Shown here: positions 3,004 through 45,526 of the stretch, one piece after another
Position numbering within the stretch: the first letter of the stretch is position 1
Layout: each line of letters begins with the position of its first letter
IMG/VR virus record: IMGVR_UViG_3300021090_000031
Coordinates: 1 to 49,091 of that record
Direction: 5' to 3' (one strand)
DNA length: 49,091 bases
From: a virus
Made by a program: the position numbers and the translations under genes
Notes under the pieces: generated by a model
What the model saw: only the letters and a program-made list of their open reading frames with translations
Told to the model about the DNA's origin: nothing
Databases searched by the model: none

Positions 3004-3929
3004 TGAACCTTGAACATTACGAGCAGAAAAAGACACACAAAATATGTGTGTTTGGTCGCGCCAAAGTAGGAAAAACTATTCTCGTTTCTCAACTAGCAAA
3101 GATTGGGAAGCTGTGGTGGTTTGATCTCGAAGATGGAATTAAATCAGCAATGAATCCTGCATTGCTCCCAAAGGAATACTGGAAGAATATTGAAATCTTT
3201 CGTATTCCATCAATGCAAGCAATCCCTATGGGGATTGAGACATTGCTAAAAGTTATCAAAGGTAACGAATGCAAAATCTGCTGGAATCATGGAAAGGTAG
3301 ATTGCGTTGTTTGTTCTAAAGACCCAAATGTAGTAGTAACACCAATTTGCCTTCAAAAATTTACACAAAATGATTGGCTTGTGATTGACTCTATTACTCA
3401 ACTTACAAGTGATGCAAATGCTGCCGTACTTAAGTTCATCTTCGCCAGCGCAGATACTCCAGAGAAATTTGTTCTAGATAAAGATACTGGTGGCAAAGAT
3501 TTCAAGTATCCTATGGCTGTCTCTTTCATGCTTGATCGTATCTTTTCGACTATTCAAGCTGGAAACTTCAATTGTGCTGTTATTAGCCATGAGGTCATGA
3601 CAGAGAGAACTAAAGATACTGGACACGCTCCAGGTAAGGGGGAGAATCAACCTTCAGACAACGTGGAAATGATATTCCCTGCGGCTGGAAGTAGAAACTT
3701 TAGCAGAAATTTTGGGCGCTACTTCGATATGCTTATCCACGTTGACATAATTAATCGGAGGCATCGTGCATTCTCCTCGACTACCTACGACTCCCGCGTA
3801 CAAACTGGATCGAGATTGGAGAAGAACATTGAGGAAGTTCTGGATGCTAAAGGCCAGCCTCTCCCCCCAAACGAAGCTATCGTCAAACTATTTGAGAGGA
3901 AGCAAGATGAGCCAACTAAATCTACGTAA
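3003..3929 (+). CDS. RecA-like P-loop ATPase, Sak4-like recombinase
   Basis: Walker A is GRAKVGKT at residues 18-25 and Walker B is WLVIDS with D129, as in phage AAA_24/Sak4-type ATPases. Those proteins act as RecA-fold single-strand annealing or recombination factors and commonly sit beside an SSB gene, as here (SSB-like gene at 4,340). Between the Walker motifs is an insertion with two CxxC pairs (C90/C93 and C101/C104), a probable zinc knuckle. The ATG follows the upstream stop directly and the 3' end overlaps the next gene by 23 bases. RecA-fold ATPase is secure; the Sak4 assignment is by architecture and context. Confidence 0.8.
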   Translation: MNLEHYEQKKTHKICVFGRAKVGKTILVSQLAKIGKLWWFDLEDGIKSAMNPALLPKEYWKNIEIFRIPSMQAIPMGIETLLKVIKGNECKICWNHGKVDCVVCSKDPNVVVTPICLQKFTQNDWLVIDSITQLTSDANAAVLKFIFASADTPEKFVLDKDTGGKDFKYPMAVSFMLDRIFSTIQAGNFNCAVISHEVMTERTKDTGHAPGKGENQPSDNVEMIFPAAGSRNFSRNFGRYFDMLIHVDIINRRHRAFSSTTYDSRVQTGSRLEKNIEEVLDAKGQPLPPNEAIVKLFERKQDEPTKST

Positions 3930-41186: not shown

Positions 41187-41294
41187 GTGGATAACTACTT
41201 CATTCTTCTCCTTGCCTTGTCAGTATTGATGTTTGCACTTGCTGGCATGGCGTGGCTTGCTGACTGGCTAGAAAGGAAATACCCTCATGGCTGA
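41187..41294 (+). CDS. 35-aa single-pass membrane peptide
   Basis: A GTG start opens a 35-codon ORF with one strong transmembrane helix (FILLLALSVLMFALAGMAWLA) and a charged C-terminal tail (DWLERKYPHG). Its stop overlaps the helicase ATG by 8 bases, so the two would be coupled. Early phage membrane peptides often target host envelope or defence, but no function can be assigned. Confidence 0.5.
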   Translation: MDNYFILLLALSVLMFALAGMAWLADWLERKYPHG

Positions 41295-43044
41295 TCTCTC
41301 AAAAGATCGTCTTTTGCTTCTTATTGAAGAAGCTAAGAAAAAGGAGGAGCAGAGAAAGCAAGTAGCTATTGCTGCTACTTCTGCCCCTACTACCATCCCA
41401 ATTCCTCACGCTCTTTCCGCAGACCAGATAGTTGAACAAGCTGTCCAAGCTGCAAATCCTGATGCGTTTGAATGGAATGTGGAACAGCAACGCGCCATAG
41501 ATTTTGCAGTAACAGGCAAAAGCTTTAACCTTATTGGCGCAGCAGGCACTGGAAAAACTACTGCTGAGCGTGAAATTGTGCGTCGCCTCATCGTTGACGA
41601 AGTAGTATCCCCTTTGCAATCCAGCACTAAATACTTAGTGCAAGGTGTCCCCGGCATTGTACTTACATCCTTCACACGCAGAGCAGTTAGAAATATGCGC
41701 AAGGTAGTAAGTGAAGATATGAAAAAACACTGCATCACACTTCACAAACTGTTGGAGTATGAACCTGTATTCTACGAGGTTTGGGATAATGAATCGCAAA
41801 AGTATAAGAAAACAATGCGATTCGAGCCTATGAAGAATAAAGATAATAGGCTTCCTGATGAAGTAAAGTGTATCATCATTGATGAGAGCAGTATGGTGAG
41901 CACTGATCTTTTTCAAAAGCTTCTTGAAGCATTGCCTAACGTATCTCGTGTACAGTTTATTTTTGTTGGTGATCTTCACCAGTTGCCTCCTGTATACGGG
42001 CAAGCTATTCTCGGGTTTAAGCTTCTATCCTTGCCTACCATTGAACTTACCAAAATCTACCGTCAGGCGCAGAAATCTCCAATTATTGCTCTTGCCCATC
42101 GCATGAAGAACGGGGAAGATATTGCTCTCTCTCTTACCAATGAGAAAGTAGTTACTGAGCAAGGAACAGTAACCCTGCGCCCGTGGAAGAAACCTCTCTC
42201 AGATTTTGATGCTGCATTGACTGCAAGTGCGTTTCTCAAGAAGTTAGTCTCCGAGGGAGATTACAATGAAGAAGAAGATATTATTCTCTGTCCGCAAGAG
42301 AAAACCAAAAATACAGCCTTCGGAACTAATGAGTTTAACCGCATTGTTGCTCAGGCACTCGGGGATAAGAGACACGCAGAAGTATTTGAAGTTATTGCTG
42401 GATACGAAAAGCATTATCTCGCAGTTGGAGATAGGCTGCTCGTTGGAAGGGAAGATGCTATCGTTAAATCTATCACTAAGAATTCAAAATACTGGGGAGG
42501 AAAGCATCCACTTACTGCCTCTGTTGACCTTGATAGGTGGGGGCAGTACAGAAAGAAAGTAGAGCAATCAATGGATAATTCAGATGTAGATGCTATGCTT
42601 GATTCTTATACTCTCGCTCCTGATGACAAGGAAGATGATAAGAAGCAAGAAGCATCACACTGCATTTTAGTTGAATTGCTTGATTCTGGAGTAGAAGAAA
42701 CTATCTCAACTGCGGGAGAAATCAATGCCACGCAATTTGCATATGCGCTTACAGTGCATAAGTCTCAAGGCAGTGAATGGAAACGTGTTTTCTTCCTCAC
42801 CCATCAATCTCACGTTGTCATGTGGAATAGAGAGTTGCTTTATACCGCTATTACAAGAGCGCGTGAAGAACTCTACATTATTTGTGAGCCTGACAGAGCA
42901 GGAAAACGCGGAACTTTGTGGAAAGCTGCAAAATCTCCTAGAATCAAGGGGGATACACTTGCGGAGAAAGCGGAGTATTTCAAAGGTAGGCAAGAAGAAT
43001 ACGAAAATAAATACGAACCTTTAACTAATGCTGAAAGCAAATGA
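41287..43044 (+). CDS. RecD/Pif1-like SF1B DNA helicase (585 aa)
   Basis: Motif I is GAAGTGKT (84-91), motif II IIIDES (D199, E200), motif III FVGDLHQLPP, motif V ALTVHKSQGSEW and motif VI LLYTAITRAREELY, in the order of RecD/Pif1/Dda-type 5'-3' helicases. The N-terminal 60 residues are a charged helical extension. It probably unwinds DNA in replication or recombination, alongside the DUF3987-like helicase and the Cas4-like nuclease. Confidence 0.9.
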   Translation: MADLSKDRLLLLIEEAKKKEEQRKQVAIAATSAPTTIPIPHALSADQIVEQAVQAANPDAFEWNVEQQRAIDFAVTGKSFNLIGAAGTGKTTAEREIVRRLIVDEVVSPLQSSTKYLVQGVPGIVLTSFTRRAVRNMRKVVSEDMKKHCITLHKLLEYEPVFYEVWDNESQKYKKTMRFEPMKNKDNRLPDEVKCIIIDESSMVSTDLFQKLLEALPNVSRVQFIFVGDLHQLPPVYGQAILGFKLLSLPTIELTKIYRQAQKSPIIALAHRMKNGEDIALSLTNEKVVTEQGTVTLRPWKKPLSDFDAALTASAFLKKLVSEGDYNEEEDIILCPQEKTKNTAFGTNEFNRIVAQALGDKRHAEVFEVIAGYEKHYLAVGDRLLVGREDAIVKSITKNSKYWGGKHPLTASVDLDRWGQYRKKVEQSMDNSDVDAMLDSYTLAPDDKEDDKKQEASHCILVELLDSGVEETISTAGEINATQFAYALTVHKSQGSEWKRVFFLTHQSHVVMWNRELLYTAITRAREELYIICEPDRAGKRGTLWKAAKSPRIKGDTLAEKAEYFKGRQEEYENKYEPLTNAESK

Positions 43045-43852: not shown

Positions 43853-44512
43853 ATGGACCCTGTAACTGTTCTCCCAATTCCTACTGAAGCAAAAGAAGTT
43901 GCCTTCCACTTCAAAAAGGAAAAGATTCGCAATCAAGCAAATGAAGTAATTGGTGAAGGCAAGAAACTCCCCTCGATCAAAGTTGCTGTTGGTCGTCCGA
44001 ATGCAGAGGGGATTCTGGAAATCGTGAAAGCTGGTGGAAAAGAACTGGACTTGCTGCTTGATGCTGCTGCGGATATTGTCATTGATCGCGTTCGCAGCCT
44101 TATCAACGAAGTCCGCGCCAAGCTTCCTGATGGTCAGGAAATCAAGCCTGAAATGATTGACCTGAATCAAGCTTCTTGGTCAATCATCGCCAACATTCCT
44201 AAGGCAGTTCGTAAAGGTCTTGGAATTTCGGACGAAGATTGGGATGATTTCTCTGCCGACTATCGCGCCATCATGCCGGGAGTTACGCAGAAAGACGCCG
44301 ACCGCATCGAGAAACACATCAAGCTTTTCAAGAGCAAGTATGCCCAGTGCAGAAATGACAAGAAAGCACTGGCTGTTCTTGCTGAGATGCTGGATGTGTG
44401 GGCTGCGAACACTGGCAGCATGGATGACAACCAAACGGTTTACGAGTACCTGAAAGGCCGTGCTGCTTCGCTGATGCAAGAAGAAGAAAAGGTTCTTGCT
44501 GAAGCTCTGTAA
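43853..44512 (+). CDS. Unknown, probably abundant early protein (219 aa)
   Basis: This helical 219-residue protein has acidic and basic patches and no recognised motif. Codon use is more G+C-rich and uniform than neighbouring early genes, as in the SSB-like gene, and it has its own promoter and leader, so it is likely highly expressed. Such abundance would suit a DNA-binding or structural early protein. No homologue recognised. Confidence 0.7.
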   Translation: MDPVTVLPIPTEAKEVAFHFKKEKIRNQANEVIGEGKKLPSIKVAVGRPNAEGILEIVKAGGKELDLLLDAAADIVIDRVRSLINEVRAKLPDGQEIKPEMIDLNQASWSIIANIPKAVRKGLGISDEDWDDFSADYRAIMPGVTQKDADRIEKHIKLFKSKYAQCRNDKKALAVLAEMLDVWAANTGSMDDNQTVYEYLKGRAASLMQEEEKVLAEAL

Positions 44513-44522
44513 GTTTTGATGG

Positions 44523-44569
44523 GGGAGTATGGCGCCTGTATAGAGCCATAACAAAGGATAAATACTCCC
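44523..44569 (+). other. Branched hairpin after the 219-aa gene
   Basis: GGGAGTAT (44,523-44,530) pairs with ATACTCCC (44,562-44,569), and ATGGC/GCCAT forms an inner stem. There is no U-run, so termination is doubtful; it may protect the mRNA end or belong to the structured RNA downstream. Confidence 0.5.
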
Positions 44570-44595
44570 ATAATTAGAGGAAGTAGTTAATATTT

Positions 44596-44601
44596 TATAA
44601 T
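44596..44601 (+). promoter_or_regulatory. Perfect -10 box before the structured RNA
   Basis: TATAAT lies within an AT-rich tract. The best -35 candidate (around 44,573-44,579) is weak. Predicted transcription start is about 44,608, exactly at the left edge of the hairpin-dense region. Confidence 0.5.
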
Positions 44602-44604
44602 TTG

Positions 44605-45235
44605 AGGCTGGCCTGCTTGGACTATAAGCTGACTCCTACTAAATGGTAGGAAGGTCGAAAGACTTAAGACAGGGCGGATAGACGCCCAAGCTGACTGATG
44701 AACTGGTGAGATAGTCAAAATACTATCAATTCCAGCGAAACTGCGATGCGGAGTTGCCTAGTTTCTCCAATTCGCAGTATCAGCGTAATATCTAAAGTAG
44801 GGCGGCTCTTTCGCTGGTTTAGCTAACTAGTGTTGTGGCATTATACAAAGAGCGTCGGAACCACAGTAACCGACTGAGTAGAGGCCAAACCTTGCAGTAA
44901 CGTGCTGTGAGGTTCTACTCAAAGAGACTCTGGGATGGTGAAGTTAAGTCCATCAATAATGAAAGCAGAGTCTCTTTGAGTAGTTAGTGAACGGCGGGAA
45001 ATGTTCCATGCTAACGACAATCGATGGAAATGTTAATCTGACGAGCGTTAATTACGACTACTATTCTGCACAACTGATAAAGGCAAGCCAAAAGCTCATG
45101 CTCAATCCATCAGTGGAAAAGGAAGATGATAGTCCTGTAGGTAATAGACAGGCTCTTCCTTATAGTGCGCCGGAGATTCCGAGTAACCGGCTTGAACACC
45201 ATCGCAAGATTTATACAGTCTTGTGTATAGCATCC
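44605..45235 (+). ncRNA. Large structured non-coding RNA, family unassigned
   Basis: About 630 bases contain many helices. They include a 12-bp perfect stem (44,921-44,932 with 44,966-44,977); TGAGTAGA/TCTACTCA (44,875-44,882, 44,914-44,921) around a 9-bp inner helix; GCTCTTT/AAAGAGC (44,805-44,811, 44,847-44,853); GTCGG/CCGAC (44,854-44,858, 44,870-44,874), whose loop can pair with TGTGG at 44,834; GTTAG/CTAAC; GGAAG/CTTCC enclosing CCTGT/ACAGG; and GCCGG/CCGGC (45,169-45,191). Two of these have GGA and AGUAA on opposite sides, like loop-E motifs. Size, density and phage context resemble the GOLLD/ROOL ornate RNAs. The family, both ends and the overlap with an open frame are uncertain. Confidence 0.65.
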
Positions 45236-45259
45236 ACAATACCCCGTAGAGGAAAAAAG

Positions 45260-45526
45260 ATGGACAAGCCTAAGCCAATGCAAAATAATGTGCAACCTTC
45301 TGCACCTGTACACACTACTCCAGAGCACAAGCAGAATGTCTTTGCTATGCAATCTCATTCTGCACATATGCTCAAGCAAGAACTAGTACGACAAATGACT
45401 GTCCTTGCTAACTTTGGCATCACCATGAAGTCGCGCGCAATGCGTTGTGCTGGCGTAACTTACAAGCCTAATGGAGTACGAGAACGCCAACGCCGTATTC
45501 GCCAGCTAGTTAAGAAGCAAGGCTAG
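45260..45526 (+). CDS. Basic hypothetical early protein (88 aa)
   Basis: The ATG at 45,260 follows AGAGGAAAA. The product has a disordered N-terminus (Pro/Gln/His) and a strongly basic C-terminal half (RERQRRIRQLVKKQG), so nucleic-acid binding is plausible. The frame is open upstream to 44,987, through the structured region. I prefer the shorter start, but an N-terminal extension of 91 residues cannot be excluded. Confidence 0.62.
   Translation: MDKPKPMQNNVQPSAPVHTTPEHKQNVFAMQSHSAHMLKQELVRQMTVLANFGITMKSRAMRCAGVTYKPNGVRERQRRIRQLVKKQG

Follow-up and report, generated by a model that had tools for sequence, protein, structure and literature searches.

What fills the gap of 747 bases between a 219-aa gene and an 88-aa gene in the virus record IMGVR_UViG_3300021090_000031, and is it read as RNA? 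The window analyzed in this study is the whole record, 49091 bases in length. A first-pass annotation, made from the letters of the sequence, had proposed a large ornate non-coding RNA that starts at position 44605 and may belong to the GOLLD or ROOL families or to a new class. The analysis confirmed the presence of a large structured RNA in the gap (44513-45259), encoded on the + strand and supported by covariation.

A conserved slot in related phages

The large terminase of this phage (35461-37005) is 33-37% identical to those of Pseudomonas phages PaP2/119X, Polaromonas phage Tiera, and Aeromonas phage P5; these phages also provide the best relatives of the Dda-like helicase (41287-43044). 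The contig ends, 1-2956 and 46214-49091, match each other in order with ~88-90% identity. Two explanations suggest themselves: a circular or permuted genome whose closure involved a strain variant, or a terminal duplication that has since diverged; the genes at the ends would then be counted twice.

The structured-RNA slot is the gap at 44513-45259 on the + strand. The upstream gene (43853-44512, + strand, from the ORF list) encodes the 219-aa protein, whose relatives mark the slot as conserved. Homologues of this protein were found in 10 other viral contigs and in L044 (hhalign probability 99.8), and no Pfam or PHROG match was found for it. The downstream gene (45260-45526, + strand) encodes 88 amino acids, has an ATG preceded by AGAGGA, and is conserved in the contigs L002 and L004. 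A functional annotation search of the small proteins neighbouring the RNA gave no matches. The 219-aa protein of the window is 95% identical to that of L002 and ~72% identical to that of L004; L010 carries the same slot sequence as L004. Across the related phages, the slot is kept between homologous genes (synteny). A homologous RNA follows the 219-aa gene in L002 and L004 (and L010), L016 and L017 have a hammerhead plus a different downstream fold, and the distant relative L044 also has an RNA in the slot. The size of the RNA ranges from ~375 to 750 nt across the members. In the more distant relatives L020, L021, and L005, the slot contains an intrinsic terminator. L005 also has a tRNA gene (3191-3275) there, at the place taken by the structured RNA in the closer relatives of the window.

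Covariation and extent of the RNA

The segment from 44595 to 45250 has a minimum free energy of -213.8 kcal/mol (z = -4.4 against shuffles). Since the reverse complement is equally stable (z = -4.5), the energy alone proves neither an RNA nor its strand, and folding energy was rejected as proof. Covariation among the window, L002, and L004 was analyzed with RNAalifold, and 21 of the 78 consensus pairs were found to be changed on both sides. Pair counts of the same three sequences in the region 44853-44986 gave 97.4% paired cells and 11 double-change pairs. None of 500 shuffles reached this level, and the pairing was destroyed when the partners were slid by 1-3 columns. Although the set of three sequences is small, such changes occur in four separate helices. 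The first reading of this DNA had listed at least eight strong helices; they are present in the sequence and are backed by the covariation. Compensatory changes are abundant among the homologues, and no conserved coding frame was found through the region, which supports the proposal of a large ornate non-coding RNA.

The conserved structure begins at about 44523, and the RNA reaches the ribosome-binding site of the gene starting at 45260. The left edge drawn at 44605 is no natural boundary, as the structure starts upstream of it and the predicted hammerhead cut lies at 44779/44780. A TATAAT box was said to mark this edge. The box does exist at 44596-44601, but it was rejected as a promoter, because no promoter-like pair lies there and the region has no more promoter matches than expected by chance. 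No intrinsic terminator (a hairpin followed by a T-run) was found in 44513-45259. The lack of both an above-chance promoter and a terminator in the window slot is consistent with co-transcription.

No Rfam family fits the window RNA, either at gathering thresholds or at E <= 10. GOLLD or ROOL membership did not hold, as no match was obtained at gathering and none to either family at E up to 10. The top matches at E <= 10 were microRNA hairpin models aligned to the long stem, and were rejected. No Rfam covariance model of group I introns, group II introns, or HEARO gave a match. A DNA search of GenBank phages gave no homologue of the complete window RNA, and the same search with L002 as the query found matches to its hammerhead and to its pseudoknot module. 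Two patterns scanned against bacterial and archaeal genome contigs had no match. Pattern matches in L008 and L009 were discarded as chance matches in coding sequence, and those in L022-L027 were likewise discarded as coding sequence by context.

A type I hammerhead at the head of the RNA

It was found that the 5′ part of the slot has the architecture of a type I hammerhead ribozyme (44690-44784, + strand), which the first-pass annotation had overlooked. It was recognized by a pattern scan, by the MFE fold, and by its presence in the same slot of L002, L004, and L016. Stem I (44690-44694/44780-44784, GCTGA/TCAGC) is followed by the core CTGATGA (44695-44701), stem II (44703-44706/44732-44735), a GAA (44737-44739, within CGAAAC; the GAAA core spans 44737-44740), and stem III (44740-44746/44772-44778), all on the + strand. 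The predicted cleavage site is 44779/44780, after GUA. The pattern with explicit stems matched the window, L002, L004, and L016, always in the same slot, and had no match in 10 Mb of Markov random sequence.

The three-helix topology is present, and the stems covary in six phages. The catalytic core CUGANGA...GAAA is invariant in the window, L002, L004, L016, L032, and L033. Stem I is written differently in each of the four slot phages (GCTGA/TCAGC, CTGT/ACAG, CCAA/TTGG, and GTCGT/ACGAC), as is stem III, and stem II is rewritten in L016. An NUH cleavage site is found in all four: GUA in the window and L002, GUC in L004 and L016. When folded in isolation, the segment adopts the hammerhead as its MFE structure in three phages (the window, L004, and L016), and in L002 the hammerhead lies within 1 kcal/mol of the MFE. 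A pairing of the 5′ strand of the hammerhead with 44979-44985, suggested by RNAalifold, fails in L002 and was rejected.

The hammerhead G-C pair at 10.1-11.1 is strongly conserved. It is present in L002, L004, L016, L032, and L033, but the window has A10.1 (44702) facing C11.1 (44736), an A·C mismatch. Thus, the window copy is possibly slow or dead; the mismatch may impair catalysis, and the activity of this copy is uncertain. The window copy alone also has an extra 18-base hairpin, GATAGTCAAAATACTATC, in loop II (44710-44727, + strand), as seen in the alignment. Rfam made no hammerhead call in the window even at E 10, and RF00008 gave partial alignments to L016 (18.4 bits) and L004 (16.5 bits), below the gathering threshold of 48.5. 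Judged from the sequence, the architecture in the window is assigned to the hammerhead family; the assignment is one of architecture and does not extend to the activity of this copy.

Upstream of the hammerhead, a 5′ hairpin, GGGAGTATGGC...GATAAATACTCCC (44523-44569, + strand), was identified by comparison of two sequences, without covariation. It is nearly identical in L002, where it adjoins the hammerhead. Matches to the hammerhead core of L002 were also found in Pseudomonas phage phita81A and Acinetobacter phage vB_AbaSI_2, both times in an intergenic stretch ahead of a tRNA. The order hammerhead, spacer, tRNA is thus seen in isolated phages of Pseudomonas and Acinetobacter (L032, 2494-2861; L033, 2487-2802). 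The head of a structured RNA or of a tRNA region is a recurring position of the hammerhead. On the other hand, L003, L015, and L044 have no detectable hammerhead, though an RNA is present in their slot. Thus, the head is lineage-specific, and self-cleavage is not essential to the role of the RNA. No second ribozyme was recognized at the 3′ end of the RNA.

Anatomy of the RNA downstream of the predicted cut

The first element after the predicted cut is module B (44802-44875, + strand), which was defined by pair counts and by a covariance model, R1. Its helix (44805-44811/44847-44853) encloses a hairpin (44814-44819/44825-44830), and a loop-E-like hairpin, GGAACCACAGUAACC (44854-44858/44870-44874, + strand), with GGAA...AGUAA, follows. 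R1 was built from positions 44802-44875 of the window, L002, and L004 only. In a search of loci totalling 215 kb, it picked up the same slot in L015 (E 1.5e-4) and in L003 (E 3e-3), and no other match had an E value below 0.9; R1 did not detect module B in L016 and L044. When complete records were searched, each genome gave a single significant match. L015 and L003 add 8 double-change pairs in the set of five sequences, whose alignment was fitted to the model. A loop-loop contact between TGTGG (44834-44838) and CCACA (44861-44865), which had been suggested from the letters, is possible: both motifs are present on the + strand and both are invariant in the window, L002, and L004.

The next region may have two states. 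In the alignment of the window, L002, and L004, strand A (44875-44882) pairs with strand B (44914-44921) to form a hairpin on the + strand, whose inner 25 bases, with the stem 44889-44899/44903-44913, are almost invariant in sequence. The segment 44883-44913 has one change among the three phages, inside an otherwise covarying RNA; this looks like a binding site or a tertiary contact. A perfect 12-bp stem had been described at 44921-44977. The stem is indeed perfect, but its extent had been underestimated, as it is 18 bp long (44915-44932/44966-44983, + strand); it covaries. The first 7 bp of this long stem join strand B to a third strand, A′ (44977-44983), which excludes the A/B helix. Both the A/B and the B/A′ pairings stay complementary and covary across the window, L002, and L004. 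The three strands thus change together, which is the signature of two alternative states, that is, of a putative three-strand exchange. Alternatively, one pairing may be constrained and the other due to chance, as there are three sequences.

The portion from 45000 to 45235 is the most variable of the RNA. Two putative 3′ hairpins are seen in its sequence on the + strand, ACTGAT (45073-45078) with ATCAGT (45109-45114) and GGAAGA (45121-45126) with TCTTCC (45154-45159). They are followed by a second loop-E-like hairpin, GCCGG...CCGGC (45169-45191, + strand), which is GAGGG...CCCTC in L004. The repeated GGA/AGUAA patterns pointed out earlier correspond to these two loop-E-like hairpins (44854-44874 and 45169-45191), and the stems of both covary with L004.

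A pseudoknot module shared with other phages

The slot of L002 holds a pseudoknot element. In the window, an unfiltered search with the model R2 found no match to this module, and only a doubtful remnant of it might be seen in TCTGACG (45037) and TAACG/CGTTA (45012/45045). By a motif scan, the element was found in L030 between tRNA-Ile and tRNA-Lys in a stretch of 18 tRNAs, and partly in L016. BLAST with L002 found the module in Pseudomonas phage phiHQ (L031; blastn E 8e-7), where it scores 114 bits with R2, a model whose training set includes phiHQ. A relaxed scan found it in L044 (in the same slot), L045 (in a tRNA array), and L046 (just 5′ of tRNA-Asn). The shared module matches no Rfam family.

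In L002, L030, and phiHQ, all 63 of 63 cells are paired and 8 of the 21 pairs are double-changed, a level that none of 500 shuffles equalled. A fourth helix covaries in the wider set (ACGGT/ACCGT, TCGGT/ACCGA, and GCGGT/ACCGC). Some of the third hairpin loop was specified in the scan pattern, so that conservation there results from selection by the pattern, while helices 1 and 2 lie outside the pattern. Several tRNA spacers of L030 (4375-5431) have long complementary sequences at their two ends that close them, as though every spacer formed a structured element in its own right.

In phiHQ, the module lies in an intergenic RNA (L031, 2310-2815) that separates the nuclear-shell and RNA polymerase beta genes of phiKZ-like phages. 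This RNA has a conserved 205-nt 3′ part with a terminator, present in 59 records, and an exchangeable 5′ part. The 5′ part of phiHQ stands in place of an unrelated 5′ part of the other phiKZ-like phages. Since one 5′ part has replaced another before the conserved 205-nt part, phage RNAs of this type appear to exchange modules.

Release of a stable RNA or processing of an mRNA?

On balance, the slot probably encodes a structured non-coding RNA that is co-transcribed with the operon, released at its 5′ end by the hammerhead, and active as a stable structured RNA. The RNA would be transcribed on the + strand with the surrounding operon, and the type I hammerhead at 44690-44784 would cut the transcript at 44779/44780. 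The cleavage would leave the upstream mRNA with a 2′,3′-cyclic phosphate end and give the downstream RNA a 5′-OH end, which should resist 5′-monophosphate-dependent decay. The released RNA, from about 44780 to 45235, would have several hairpins, the loop-E-like motifs, and the three-strand exchange, and it would be a stable structured RNA built from modules that are exchangeable in different phages. The data show the conserved structure, the hammerhead architecture, the synteny, and the absence from Rfam, whereas I infer transcription, cleavage, and 5′ release, as well as a trans-acting role of the RNA. The pseudoknot module of the sister phages also occurs in tRNA arrays and in a phiKZ-like phage, and in those places it is unlikely to serve as the leader of one given gene. 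Three points count against this account. The window copy, with the A·C at 10.1/11.1 and the changed loop II, may cut poorly or not at all. L003, L015, and L044 keep the RNA with no detectable hammerhead. In addition, the RNA extends into the ribosome-binding site of the gene downstream, which is what a leader would do.

A broader reading is possible but less likely than not. There may be a new class of modular phage RNAs with hammerhead release and a two-state three-strand exchange, whose modules, including a double-pseudoknot element, are swapped among podovirus-like phages, large phages (in their tRNA arrays), and nucleus-forming phages of the phiKZ type. Such RNAs might share a function at the RNA level in infection, possibly in translation or the use of tRNAs.

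The main rival of the stable RNA, not fully exclusive with it, is cis-acting processing of the mRNA, which I regard as possible but clearly the less probable of the two. The hammerhead would divide the polycistronic early mRNA just behind the 219-aa gene, with the RNA serving as a 5′ leader that stabilizes the downstream small genes or regulates them via the three-strand exchange. It would explain why the RNA reaches as far as the ribosome-binding site of the gene downstream and why its helices are mutually exclusive, as is typical of switches. The intrinsic terminators in the slot of L020, L021, and L005 also fit, as separation of the transcripts may be the conserved need. It was proposed by Perreault et al. 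2011 that hammerheads cut phage transcripts into gene-length mRNAs (PMC3088659), and this proposal also favors processing in cis. However, the genes after the RNA differ: there are small ORFs in the window, L002, and L004, those of L015 and L003 differ, and L016 and L044 have other genes. Moreover, the pseudoknot module sits between tRNAs in L030, L045, and L046, and the size and sequence conservation of the RNA go beyond the needs of a cut site.

It is rather unlikely that the RNA self-assembles into a large particle in the manner of GOLLD and ROOL, made late or at lysis and perhaps enclosing tRNAs or other cargo. The size is similar, the sister modules have multiple pseudoknots, one module is associated with phage tRNA arrays, and no protein partner is evident. 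On the other hand, neither family matches in Rfam, and the size varies from ~375 to 750 nt.

Improbable, too, is a decaying remnant, in which the hammerhead and the RNA would no longer function in the window genome. The A·C mismatch and the loop II insertion of the hammerhead, and the loss of the pseudoknot module of L002, would agree with decay. However, compensatory changes preserve module B and the long stem, and 44883-44913 hardly differs in L004 despite a neighbouring protein that is only ~72% identical. Finally, it is very improbable that the open frame of 179 aa at 44987-45526 is a gene starting upstream of 45260: its last ~33 codons before that point (45163-45259) form an open stretch in frame that shows partial protein similarity to L002 and L004, interrupted by in-frame indels, but the ribosome-binding site and the ATG at 45260 are conserved, the N-terminal parts are unrelated in L004, the hairpin strands there covary, and the RNA of other members has no long conserved frame. 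A short extension of the small gene at its N terminus keeps a slight probability.

Comparison with known systems

The type of ribozyme and large structured phage RNAs are already known, whereas the window RNA, like the shared module, is outside the Rfam families. No description of a hammerhead-headed large phage RNA was found in the open-access literature, the search lying mostly outside subscription journals. GOLLD and ROOL have striking structures, and they are not known to have a function. The RNA described here would add a further class of large phage RNA, and its built-in ribozyme allows the 5′ end to be predicted exactly and implies an activity that is directly testable. The shared pseudoknot module connects small phages with both tRNA-rich large phages and phiKZ-like phages. 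As its carrier phiHQ is an isolated phage of Pseudomonas aeruginosa, a model host in the laboratory, function is testable there.

The hammerheads of phages and prophages (PMC3088659; Rfam clan CL00010) likewise have the CUGAUGA plus GAAA core, three stems, and an NUH site, and are intergenic. Those hammerheads flank individual genes, whereas a single copy heads a large conserved structured RNA here; the window copy further differs from them by the A·C at 10.1/11.1 and the loop II insertion. GOLLD (PMC12286853) is also large, ornate, and phage-encoded with a variable 5′ part, and one module here is tied to tRNA arrays; in contrast to GOLLD, to which no sequence or covariance match exists, the RNA is headed by a hammerhead and is smaller in most members. 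ROOL (PMC12286853) is similarly phage-encoded, about 600 nt in size, and has many helices, but its covariance model has no match here. The phiKZ-like intergenic RNA of phiHQ (L031) differs in that no hammerhead was found in it and a conserved 205-nt part with an intrinsic terminator follows, while its 5′ part carries the very pseudoknot module of L002.
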